In this document: one piece after another, positions 16,422-19,308 of the stretch
How the letters are laid out: each line of letters begins with the position of its first letter
How positions within the stretch are numbered: position 1 is the first letter of the stretch
Notes under the pieces: generated by a model
What the model was told of the DNA's origin: nothing
The model's input: only the letters and a program-made list of their open reading frames with translations
Databases searched by the model: none
DNA from: Frankia alni ACN14a
Lineage (GTDB): Bacteria > Actinomycetota > Actinomycetes > Frankiales > Frankiaceae
Direction: 5' to 3'
Assembly: GCF_000058485.1 (NCBI RefSeq)
Contig: NC_008278.1
Coordinates: 2,412,962-2,476,961, forward strand
DNA: 64,000 bases
Position numbers and translations under genes: made by a program

Positions 16422-18647
16422 CTAGAACACGCGGCGCGGGGTCGACCAGGTTGCCCCGGCTCCGGAGGTACGCCACACCATGTGCAGCTCGTCGCCGACG
16501 CGGGCGAGGACCTCCAGGTGGCCGTCGAAGTTGCTCTGGATCATCGAGACGGCGTCGACGGTGCCCAGGCTGGCGGCGAACGGGCGCGGGCCGCTCCAGA
16601 ACGGCGTGGGCGCGCCGTTGTTGCGGTAGTAGTGGATGAGCCCGCCGCCGGCGGCGGGGACGACCACCTCGAAGTTGCGCGCCCCGTCGGCGAAGGAGCT
16701 CTGGATCAGCGCCGGGTTGCCCGCGACCCCCTCGCCGAAGACCGGTCCGGTCCGCCACACCGCGGTGTTGTCCCGAGTCAGGTGCACCAGCCGGCTGCCG
16801 ACCCGGGCCACGGCCTCGAGCATGCCCGCACCGCCGCCGAGGGTGCCGTGGATGAGGCTGACCGCGTCGACCCGGCCCAGGTTCGCGCCGAACAGCTTCG
16901 GCGCGCTCCAGGGGTAACCGTGGACGTCGTGGTTGCGCCACAGGTGCAGGATGCCGACGTCCGCGGCGGGGATGAGCAGCTCGAAGTTGCCCTTCGTCCC
17001 CAGCCGGCTCTGGACGAGCGACGGCACCCCGCCGACGCCCTGGGTGAGCTGCTTGGGGTCGTGCCAGGCGAACGCCCCGGTGCTGTCGCGCCACAGGAAG
17101 GACAGCGTCGAGCCGACCCGGACGGCGACCTCCAGCGGCCCGGGGTTGGCCAGGGTGCTCTGGACCATCGTGAGGGCGTCGACGCGGCCGAGGGACTGCG
17201 CGGTCTGCCACGGGTCGCGCCAGGGGAAGCCGGTGGCGTCGTTGTCCCGCCACACGTGGGTGATCCCCGCGAACGCCGACGGCACGACGGCGTCGAAGTT
17301 GCCGGTGCGGCCCAGCCCCTTCGACTGGACCAGCGCCGGGTTGCCGCCGACGCCGTGGCCCCAGCCGATCTGGCCGGGGGTGTAGCGGCACAGCGCGAAG
17401 CTGTTGGAGCGCATCAGGCAGTCCGCCGGCGCGGGCGCGCAGGTGTCGCAGTTGCCGTTCGGGACGCCGAACGCCCCCCACGCGCCGCCGCAGTCGCAGC
17501 CCGCGCCGCCATACTCGTCCGGGGCACCGAAGATGTGCCCGGTCTCGTGGGTGAAGACGCGGTCGATGTTGTCGGGACCCCAACCGTCGTTGGCGTAGGA
17601 CATGACGATCCGAGGCCCGCCGACCGACGAGTAGGCGAAGTAGCCCAGCGGGTACTTGGTGAAGAACGCGCAGTAGGCCCACCGGGTGCCGAGCCGGGCG
17701 CGCAGCGCGTCGACGTAGTCGTAGACGCCGTCGAAGGTGGCCGCGTAACCGAGCCGGCTCATCGCCGGGTCCCGCCACAGGGCCTCCAGATCGTTCGCCT
17801 TCGGGTCCGCCGGCACGGACAGGCGCACGAGCTGGATGTCGTAGGAGAACGTGAGGTCGGCCGCCGGGTTCGTGGTGGCGTACCAGGACAGCCCGTTCTG
17901 CACCTCGGCCACGACCTTGGTCCGCTCGGCCGCCGCGAACTGCAGGTCGGCGGTCGGCCCCTCGACGAGGATCAGCCCGATGGCGACGGAGCCCTCCAGC
18001 TTCGAGCTGGTCGGGGAGCCGGCGGTGTTGGCCGCGAGGCCCGCGGCGGGGCCGCTGTCGCCGGTGGCGTCCGCGGCGCCCGCGGCGGTCAGCGTCATCA
18101 GCGGGCTCTGCAGGAGCGACTGGCCGTTGGCCACGGCGCGCGGCCCCGGGCGGTCCGGGCCCGGCCCGGTGGACCCCCGCGGCGGCGGGACGTCGGTGCA
18201 GGGGCGATCCATGTCCCACGCATGGCCGTCGCGCGGGCGATCCTGCTTCAGTCGGCGGTAGGCGGCGCTGGCGCGCAGCCGGAAGGCGTCCAGACCCAGC
18301 GTCTCGGCCCGGTTCAGGCCGGGGGAGACGCCCGTGGTCGACACGACGCTGCCGTCGGCCGGGGGCAGCAGGCCCGCGCCGGCGCGGGCCGCGAGCAGCC
18401 GCGGCCCGTCGGGTGCGTCGTCCCGCGGCCGGCCGAGTACCTGGACCCGGCCGTAGCGGTGCAGGGTCCGTTCGCCGCCGTCGGCGCCGGTGGGCCGGGC
18501 GGGCGTGGCGCCGTCGGTCGCCGCGTCGCCGCCCGTGGCCGGGTCCCCCGCGTCGGTCCTCGCGGGAGCGGCCCGCAGCGAACGGGTGGTCGCCGCGTCG
18601 GCCGGGGTGATCAGGGCGCGTTCGTCGACCGGTACGTCCCCCGCCAT
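16422..18647 (-). CDS. Large zinc metalloprotease with lectin-like repeat domain
   Basis: A 741-residue protein. A zinc-peptidase signature HETGHIFGAPDEY (His367, Glu368, His371 by position) matches HExxHxxGxxD, as in metzincins. A Cys-rich stretch (CDCGG, CDTC, CLM) follows directly. From about residue 430 to the end there are repeated ~50-60-residue modules with VWR/LWR, PW and 'GNFE/LEVV' themes, resembling a fucose-lectin or sialidase-like beta-propeller. The first ~200 residues are low-complexity, and no standard signal peptide is visible, although the Cys pairs and lectin-like domain suggest an exported enzyme. It starts at ATG 18647 and has no operon partner. Domain calls are from motif reading. 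Confidence 0.8.
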   Translation of the reverse strand: MAGDVPVDERALITPADAATTRSLRAAPARTDAGDPATGGDAATDGATPARPTGADGGERTLHRYGRVQVLGRPRDDAPDGPRLLAARAGAGLLPPADGSVVSTTGVSPGLNRAETLGLDAFRLRASAAYRRLKQDRPRDGHAWDMDRPCTDVPPPRGSTGPGPDRPGPRAVANGQSLLQSPLMTLTAAGAADATGDSGPAAGLAANTAGSPTSSKLEGSVAIGLILVEGPTADLQFAAAERTKVVAEVQNGLSWYATTNPAADLTFSYDIQLVRLSVPADPKANDLEALWRDPAMSRLGYAATFDGVYDYVDALRARLGTRWAYCAFFTKYPLGYFAYSSVGGPRIVMSYANDGWGPDNIDRVFTHETGHIFGAPDEYGGAGCDCGGAWGAFGVPNGNCDTCAPAPADCLMRSNSFALCRYTPGQIGWGHGVGGNPALVQSKGLGRTGNFDAVVPSAFAGITHVWRDNDATGFPWRDPWQTAQSLGRVDALTMVQSTLANPGPLEVAVRVGSTLSFLWRDSTGAFAWHDPKQLTQGVGGVPSLVQSRLGTKGNFELLIPAADVGILHLWRNHDVHGYPWSAPKLFGANLGRVDAVSLIHGTLGGGAGMLEAVARVGSRLVHLTRDNTAVWRTGPVFGEGVAGNPALIQSSFADGARNFEVVVPAAGGGLIHYYRNNGAPTPFWSGPRPFAASLGTVDAVSMIQSNFDGHLEVLARVGDELHMVWRTSGAGATWSTPRRVF

Positions 18648-19062
18648 GCGTGATCATTTTCCCTTCGGTGAGTAATGGCTGTGCGGAGTTGTATCGTGTT
18701 GCGGCTTTGTTGTGTCGGCTTTTACGGAAGCAAGCGCCGGGAGTACCGGTCCGTCTTATACGACCCGGTTTGTCCGCATGCGGCCGGGTGGCATTCCGGT
18801 CCGGGTGCCTGCCGGCGTGACCGGACGATCGGAGCCGGCCGTCCCTGCGGCGTCGCCCGGGGGCCGGCAGGCCGGCAGACCGCCGGCGGGCGGCCCAGGT
18901 CCCTCGGACGGACGAGCGGCCCCGGCGGTCTGCGGCGAGCCCCTCAGGCGGGCTCGGACCCTCGGGGTGCGGCCAACGCTCGGGATGCGGCCAACGCTCG
19001 GAATGCGCTCGACGCTCGGGATGCGGTCGACGTCCGGAGTGGGGTCGACGCTGGGAGTGGGG
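18648..19062 (-). other. Intergenic region, gene-free, upstream of the metalloprotease
   Basis: No coding gene is supported. The first ~110 bases next to the metalloprotease start are less GC-rich (GTTGTATCGTGTTGCGGC, TTATACGACC) and probably hold its promoter. The rest is GC-rich, and a minisatellite occupies 18961-19068. Confidence 0.5.
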
Positions 19063-19068
19063 TCAACG
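18961..19068 (+). repeat. Six-unit 18-bp minisatellite
   Basis: Six consecutive 18-bp units, the first four close to CTCGGGATGCGGCCAACG (18961, 18979, 18997, 19015) and the last two more diverged (19033, 19051). All preserve length exactly. The array abuts and overlaps by a few bases the 3' end of the 81-aa gene on the minus strand. It keeps open frames on both strands, but nothing suggests it is translated. Confidence 0.9.
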
Positions 19069-19308
19069 CTCGGGGGGGAAGGAGTTCTGCCCGGGGTTGA
19101 CGTCCGGCCAGCCGGAGCCGACGGCCGACCGGTCCGGCCCACCCATCGCGGGACCGCCCAGTCCGGAACCACCCCCCGCAGAGGCGGCCATCGCGTCGGC
19201 GACCTTGCGCATGATGGCCTCGACGAGGCGGACGGCCTGGGGGGTCGAGAGGTTCAGCACGATCTCCGAATCCCCCGCGACCTGGAATCGCACCGAAACG
19301 TCCGCCAT
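19063..19308 (-). CDS. Hypothetical 81-aa protein
   Basis: ATG 19308 follows GAGGAAGGGGAA, a good ribosome-binding site. The N-terminal half (ADVSVRFQVAGDSEIVLNLS, then TPQAVRLVEAIMRKVADAMAA) looks like a small beta-hairpin plus helix. The C-terminal half is Gly/Ser-rich. I recognise no family. Its stop lies inside the end of the 18-bp repeat array. It is divergent from the Nif3-like gene. Confidence 0.65.
   Translation of the reverse strand: MADVSVRFQVAGDSEIVLNLSTPQAVRLVEAIMRKVADAMAASAGGGSGLGGPAMGGPDRSAVGSGWPDVNPGQNSFPPER

Follow-up and report, generated by a model that had tools for sequence, protein, structure and literature searches.

A leaderless protein of Frankia alni with a metzincin zinc motif and a predicted six-bladed β-propeller

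The metzincin clan of metallopeptidases carries the zinc motif HExxHxx(G/N)xx(H/D). As set out in PMC12237041, the igalysin IgAse of Thomasclavelia ramosa (family M64) uses an aspartate as third zinc ligand, followed by a glutamate and then by the tyrosine switch. According to that paper, this glutamate, the Met-turn cysteine and two helix cysteines bind a structural zinc, and cysteines at comparable places hold a structural zinc in archaemetzincins and igalysins (PMC12237041). The archaemetzincin (M54) motif is given in PMC3427221 as HEXXHXXGXXHCX4CXMX17CXXC.

Here we describe a 741-aa protein of Frankia alni ACN14a, encoded in a 64,000-nucleotide stretch of the genome (the window). The protein possesses the metzincin zinc motif between H367 and D377 and a Met-turn sequence downstream, with C410 and M412 present in 17/17 aligned sequences. 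PMC2266912 lists, for three Frankia strains, a conserved 'Metalloprotease-like protein' that may or may not be the 741-aa protein. Term searches of the main texts of PMC8951365, PMC5768760, PMC9956245 and PMC10520049 found nothing on the gene, a weak negative with the locus tag guessed to lie near FRAAL22xx, and among the papers listed by literature searches none, judged by title and abstract opening, describes the protein or its domain combination.

Gene and domain architecture

The reading frame and its N-terminal parts are:
16422..18647, minus strand: coding sequence of the 741-aa protein, stop included (open reading frame, relatives, GC by codon position).
18480..18647, minus strand: residues 1–56, with conserved first residues MAGDVPVDERALI, variable thereafter and with no evident signal peptide.
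18177..18479, minus strand: residues 57–157, constrained N-terminal segment and candidate latency propeptide (alignment, dN/dS).
18198..18200, minus strand: Cys150 in RPCTD, candidate cysteine-switch residue (17/17 sequences, the window protein included).
18012..18176, minus strand: residues 158–212, linker, little constrained and variable in length (spacing, dN/dS).

The open reading frame is considered coding because its GC content by codon position is 0.70/0.57/0.96 and because orthologues of 727–793 aa could be extracted from nine other loci. Its ATG start codon is supported by the start MAGD(V/I)P common to 18 upstream regions, although these regions were picked by that start itself, and by a conserved block that precedes it. 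The host genome, a single contig of 7,497,934 bases, has one match to the protein. The domain order comprises the constrained segment (57–157), a free linker, the zinc-peptidase domain (213–431) and six modules of 52 residues (432–741). Residues 1–56 show dN/dS values of 0.89–3.4 against four relatives, on small counts.

Peptidase domain

The catalytic half of the protein comprises:
17355..18011, minus strand: residues 213–431, metzincin-like zinc-peptidase domain (motif, sub-threshold profiles, model).
17511..17549, minus strand: residues 367–379, HETGHIFGAPDEY, zinc site with inferred roles.
17388..17498, minus strand: residues 384–420, six invariant cysteines and the Met-turn C410-L-M412-R (alignment).

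The zinc site reads HETGHIFGAPD at positions 367–377; 2 of 20,000 shuffled versions of the protein contained the pattern HExxHxxGxxD, and the gene is the only stop-to-stop frame of at least 100 aa in the window with HExxHxxGxx[HD]. Conservation was read from an alignment of 17 sequences from five genera, the window protein included. Frames entered the alignment through a pattern that contains both the start and the zinc motif. Each of the 17 loci supplied passed it; two further loci, L010 and L038, are ended by contig edges and were left out. In this motif-selected set, H367, E368, H371, G374, D377, E378 and Y379 are each present in 17/17 sequences, as are C384, C386, C400, C403, C410, C420 and M412. 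The zinc site and the Cys-rich patch behind it, both proposed in the first-pass annotation, are thus borne out by the sequences. The domain has dN/dS values of 0.08–0.33 in four pairs.

By comparison with metzincins, H367, H371 and D377 would hold the catalytic zinc, E368 would act as general base, E378 would occupy the family position, Y379 would be the switch tyrosine that supports the transition state, and M412 would form the Met-turn.

No Pfam or NCBIfam peptidase model reaches its cut-off on the protein, and no M64 family appears among the Pfam matches at an E value of 1. The best Pfam model, Reprolysin_5, belongs to the adamalysins (M12B) and is sub-threshold in 11/11 members (best E 3.4 × 10⁻⁵; 22.0 bits against a cut-off of 27). 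Pfam Peptidase_M7 is sub-threshold in 8/11 members (18.9 against 25 bits), and the M6dom and snapalysin models in 10/11. The NCBIfam scores are 22.7 against 300 bits for snapalysin and 23.7 against 110.8 bits for M6 (TIGR03296). Snapalysin (M7) and the M6 peptidases of the immune inhibitor A type (thuringilysins) share HExxHxxGxxD and match weakly at the zinc site, but score far under the cut-offs; these matches end at the zinc-site region and therefore cover neither the N-terminal segment nor the propeller, nor the remainder of the Cys patch. The M12B adamalysins carry HExxHxxGxxH, with histidine as third ligand. They resemble the Frankia domain in profile ranking and in the helices between β2 and β3 of a weak model; however, the third ligand in Frankia is Asp377 (17/17), and all M12B scores are sub-threshold.

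The structural models of this domain are of low confidence. AlphaFold2 on the full-length protein predicts the order β-α-β-α-α-β-β-β followed by a short helix (residues 362–365) that ends before HExxH; the element order up to this helix fits the metzincin expectation. The domain folded alone is no better than within the whole protein (mean pLDDT 49), and the HETGH region lies below 50 in both models. Foldseek with the peptidase model returned nothing below an E value of 0.001, the first match being a venom adamalysin (E 0.055). With VIA, the best match was an Argonaute protein (Z-score of 6.5), with ADAM17 at 6.3, within the stated noise range of the tool; the best 50 matches comprise 9 Argonaute/Piwi entries and 40 that are ADAM, ADAMTS or venom proteins by title, the latter at Z-scores of 6.3 or less. 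The metzincin reading is therefore based on the motif, the Met-turn and the element order rather than on fold searches, since the models are weak and the fold matches insignificant. On these grounds, residues 213–431 are probably a metzincin-like peptidase of no named family.

A close described counterpart around the zinc site is IgAse. As reported, its D550-E551-Y552, C606-I-M608-R and C616 correspond to D377-E378-Y379, C410-L-M412-R and C420 of the Frankia protein (PMC12237041). The two also share a distance of ten residues from the Met-turn cysteine to the next cysteine, and both are multidomain proteins (PMC12237041). In contrast, IgAse has an extra residue before the glycine, HExxHxxxGxxD, which is missing from HETGHIFGAPD; its signal peptide, its larger catalytic domain and its helix cysteine C619, described in the same paper, have no Frankia counterpart. 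The archaemetzincin motif differs in its third ligand, which is Asp in Frankia, and in cysteine spacing.

The six-Cys patch may be a structural metal site. In such an arrangement, which igalysins also have, E378, C410, C420 and another cysteine of the patch would bind a structural zinc beneath the Met-turn; alternatively, the six cysteines would form three disulfides. The first-pass annotation had taken the lack of a standard signal peptide, despite apparent disulfides, as a hint of non-classical export. Given that the Cys/Glu pattern is also compatible with a structural zinc site, the step from disulfides to export is not compelling.

N-terminal segment and linker

Residues 57–157 show dN/dS values of 0.14–0.31 between the window protein and four relatives, whereas the linker shows 0.56–0.86 in four pairs. 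The segment is therefore a selected element, separated from the peptidase by a freer stretch. Purifying selection is seen on this segment, on the peptidase domain and on the propeller, and hardly on the linker. The linker measures 43–93 residues between CT[DE] and [LM]EG in the 16/17 sequences in which both marks were found, and in one orthologue (L017) it consists in part of tandem QPTPHA repeats, a sign that it varies freely.

Cys150 is the odd cysteine. The invariant cysteines of the peptidase domain are even in number, which makes Cys150 the natural candidate for a cysteine switch, and C326 is kept in only 14/17 sequences, so that a C150–C326 disulfide cannot be general. The segment that holds Cys150 is as constrained as the catalytic domain and may be a latency propeptide controlled by a cysteine switch, a reading drawn from the alignment. 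Residues 57–157 would keep the enzyme latent, with Cys150 placed on the zinc until the propeptide or the linker is cut. In the full-length model, the blocks of the N-terminal 210 residues have pLDDT values of 19–31.

Across 24 genomes, no second confident copy of the segment was found. In its own genome, where 150 of 354 first-look candidates received a score, the next match has an E value of 0.046 and contains a stop. On this coverage, a shared export module carried by this segment was rejected.

Propeller

The C-terminal feature is:
16425..17354, minus strand: residues 432–741, six-bladed β-propeller of three A/B pairs with about 52 aa per module (AlphaFold2, repeats).

The repeat self-identity is 0.29 at a lag of 104 residues; in 500 shuffles, no lag from 30 to 129 exceeded 0.15. 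There are six modules, as three A/B pairs, instead of the five or so counted at first pass. AlphaFold2 predicts a propeller, in 27/32 ten-residue blocks with mean pLDDT 73–96 (lowest 57), and dN/dS is 0.19–0.30 in four pairs.

In the Foldseek search of the PDB, the first 17 matches are PLL/PHL lectins of Photorhabdus (E 4.5 × 10⁻¹⁴ to 1.8 × 10⁻¹², 19–21% identity). These lectins resemble the Frankia protein in being leaderless; however, PLL has seven blades against the six of the Frankia propeller, and sequence searches provide no link. The best VIA match is the AofleA lectin (Z-score of 29.1 and r.m.s.d. of 2.9 over 287 aligned residues), and the first 14 VIA matches are AAL-type lectins (Z-scores of 27.4–29.1, 279–292 residues). 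These fucose lectins likewise have six blades, but are 9–14% identical to the Frankia propeller. The predicted model and both searches thus agree with the earlier proposal of a lectin-like propeller, and a lectin-type fold is supported at the level of the model. Sialidases, which are enzymes, reach VIA Z-scores of about 26–27, and no PLL lectin is among the best 50 VIA matches; the fold alone is therefore no proof of sugar binding. Profile and phmmer searches of PDB sequences with the propeller returned no lectin. Within the proposed mechanism, the predicted propeller would bind a glycan or glycoprotein and bring the peptidase there.

Sequence relatives of the propeller were found in four plasmid records, namely a Paenibacillus matrixin, a Streptomyces protein, a galactose-oxidase-like Burkholderia protein and a short Rhodococcus match, and in 2/198 genomes of the phylum, one of which is the host's own. 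The Paenibacillus sonchi plasmid matrixin (L043, 4206–5924) has a peptidoglycan-binding domain and three near-identical A/B pairs. In P. sonchi WP_202677761.1, a peptidase is followed by three A/B pairs that are 43.8% identical to the Frankia propeller over 95% of its length. By eye this protein also lacks an evident signal peptide, but unlike the Frankia protein it has a true M10 domain (E 3 × 10⁻⁴⁵) and a PG_binding_1 domain. A 644-aa actinobacterial protein (L058, 244–2178) carries the same propeller followed by a Gly-Ser-rich tail; its N-terminal domain has no Pfam match and, by eye, no HExxH. Visual inspection of the protein starts showed no evident signal peptide in those from Paenibacillus and Streptomyces or in L058, and a seeming one in the Burkholderia protein.

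The N-terminal domain of L058 bears on whether the Frankia protein could be a pseudo-enzyme that keeps the fold and has binding as its only function. That one propeller relative appears to do without HExxH speaks for this reading, but every zinc-site residue is retained in 17/17 Frankia-type sequences, and we regard it as barely credible. The peptidase is probably active, to judge from its sequence.

Location and export

No signal peptide is evident: within the first 60 aa, the highest 15-residue Kyte–Doolittle mean is 0.33, and the first 40 aa contain no RR. The first-pass statement on this point stands. No transmembrane segment is evident either (highest 19-residue mean 1.33).

Two marker families for export systems were followed across genomes. 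The phage-sheath family PF04984, the single marker used for contractile systems and positive in 3/14 control genomes, has no match in the host genome; it occurs in 4/24 genomes, three of which are among the 12 carriers of the peptidase gene. EccB, the single type VII marker and positive in 0/14 control genomes, occurs in 14/40 genomes, the host's own among them. It is found in 9/18 carriers and absent from the other 9/18, including G002, G017 and G021, which are assembled in one or two contigs. Neither marker tracks the peptidase gene, a second result that counts against the earlier hint of non-classical export. These observations leave it highly improbable that the protein is a contractile injection system payload or a type VII (ESX) substrate: such a role would suit a leaderless protease in a genome with EccB, but no phage-sheath family is found in this genome, half of the carriers lack EccB, and the N-terminal segment is without a second confident copy in 24 genomes.

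A stronger competitor is an intracellular metzincin-like peptidase, in which the cysteines would hold structural zinc and the propeller would serve as a scaffold for protein interactions rather than as a lectin. The missing signal peptide and transmembrane segment, export markers that do not follow the gene, the structural zinc that archaemetzincins and igalysins hold with cysteines at comparable places, and a propeller with no sequence link to PDB lectins all agree with it. Against it, the six invariant cysteines are also compatible with disulfides, the variable linker and single spare cysteine resemble a zymogen, and leaderless PLL lectins of similar fold are reported as extracellular. We consider this intracellular reading quite possible, if short of probable. 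On the leaderless lectins, PMC12203525 states that no signal peptide is recognised in the N-terminal tails of PLL lectins, and that the extracellular fraction was nevertheless reported to contain PLL2 and PLL3. Because of this precedent, we lean slightly towards an enzyme that would act outside the cytoplasm after release by lysis or by some other route; action in the cytosol is nearly as likely as release.

Distribution and genomic context

Nine related loci were found in named genomes, all of Frankia: eight are near-complete, 72–93% identical in their best segment, and one is cut short. In its own genus the protein is present in 10/13 genomes, sometimes aligning in two segments of a single frame; the other three are G005, G009 and G010. 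In G010, the small gene that lies upstream of the peptidase gene sits at the edge of a contig, past which the peptidase gene would be expected, and G009 has only distant copies of that small gene. At L010 the peptidase gene leaves the contig end after 62 residues. Of 40 related genomes, 18 encode the protein; these carriers represent 5/23 genera, all five in one family. In a draw of 198 genomes of the phylum, with at most 15 candidates scored per genome, only the host genome gave a strong match to the peptidase profile; five genomes of one other genus matched weakly (E 8.6 × 10⁻⁵ to 9.9 × 10⁻⁴) in zinc-site parts. With confidence, the family is found only in Frankiaceae among the Actinomycetota sampled. 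A pattern scan of genome contigs with the whole protein, which extended beyond Actinomycetota, returned Frankia only, and plasmids and viral contigs yielded no relatives of the peptidase. A mobile or viral origin was rejected, with no viral or plasmid relative of the peptidase and no match in PHROGs or PADLOC.

A second, divergent member of the peptidase family is encoded at L042 (from 1093 on, genome G021). It is 31% identical over the domain, has the zinc motif HELAHLFDAPDEY and four of the six cysteines, and carries a TIG domain.

Two features lie 5′ of the gene:
18677..18695, minus strand: core of a conserved block 5′ of the start codon, candidate promoter/operator (upstream alignment, genome scan).
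19063..19308, minus strand: small upstream gene, 81 aa, starting MADVSVRFQVAGDSEIVLNL (neighbour in 16/16 loci tested).

In the comparison of 18 upstream regions, the 19-base core is identical in all 11 rows from the own genus, has few changes in four others and is loose in three (L037, L040 and L041). It occurs once in the host genome when up to 3 mismatches are allowed, and a regulon sharing this core was rejected on that count.

Searches of Pfam, PHROGs and PADLOC with the 81-aa upstream protein gave no match. With its profile, 22/24 genomes of the family show 2 to 6 matches each (the host genome three), and a single weak match lies in another family. Six stretches of 12–14 kb around its paralogues in three genomes contained no HExxHxx[GN]xx[HD] frame of at least 100 aa and no tblastn relative of the 741-aa protein, and the idea that the small gene is a cognate partner of such peptidases is weakened as a result.

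Other neighbours include a DUF34/NIF3 gene, matched in 16/18 peptidase loci, and a LON-substrate-binding-domain gene, matched in 12/18; these counts include several loci that are truncated. One locus (L003) extends 2.8 kb past the peptidase gene and has no LON match. The neighbours shared at most loci argue for vertical inheritance of the gene, short of proof.

The first-pass annotation had linked the protein to life with plants. That emphasis is not supported: the gene is present in five of the family's genera, in most cases with the same neighbours, and related propellers sit on proteins of other bacteria. A plant-specific effector as the default reading was rejected because of this spread and shared setting.

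Implications

The account that explains the observations best, to which we give about an even chance, is that of a zinc endopeptidase, leaderless and probably latent, that carries a domain for docking. A more far-reaching version is possible, though on the whole unlikely. The protein would found a new metzincin family, kept at one locus throughout a bacterial family and formed by a leaderless cysteine-switch zymogen with an aspartate as third ligand, a second metal site and a six-bladed propeller aimed at glycans; together with the Paenibacillus matrixin and L058, it would mark a recurring bacterial design in which a leaderless peptidase or peptidase-like domain is joined to the same propeller.

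The protein is a conserved protease-like component of a nitrogen-fixing lineage that lives in symbiosis with plants, and secretome surveys based on signal peptides would be expected to miss it. If the peptidase is active, it would add to the metzincins a family with an aspartate zinc ligand and a zymogen switch; if the propeller binds glycans, the 741-aa protein would be a glycan-aimed protease.
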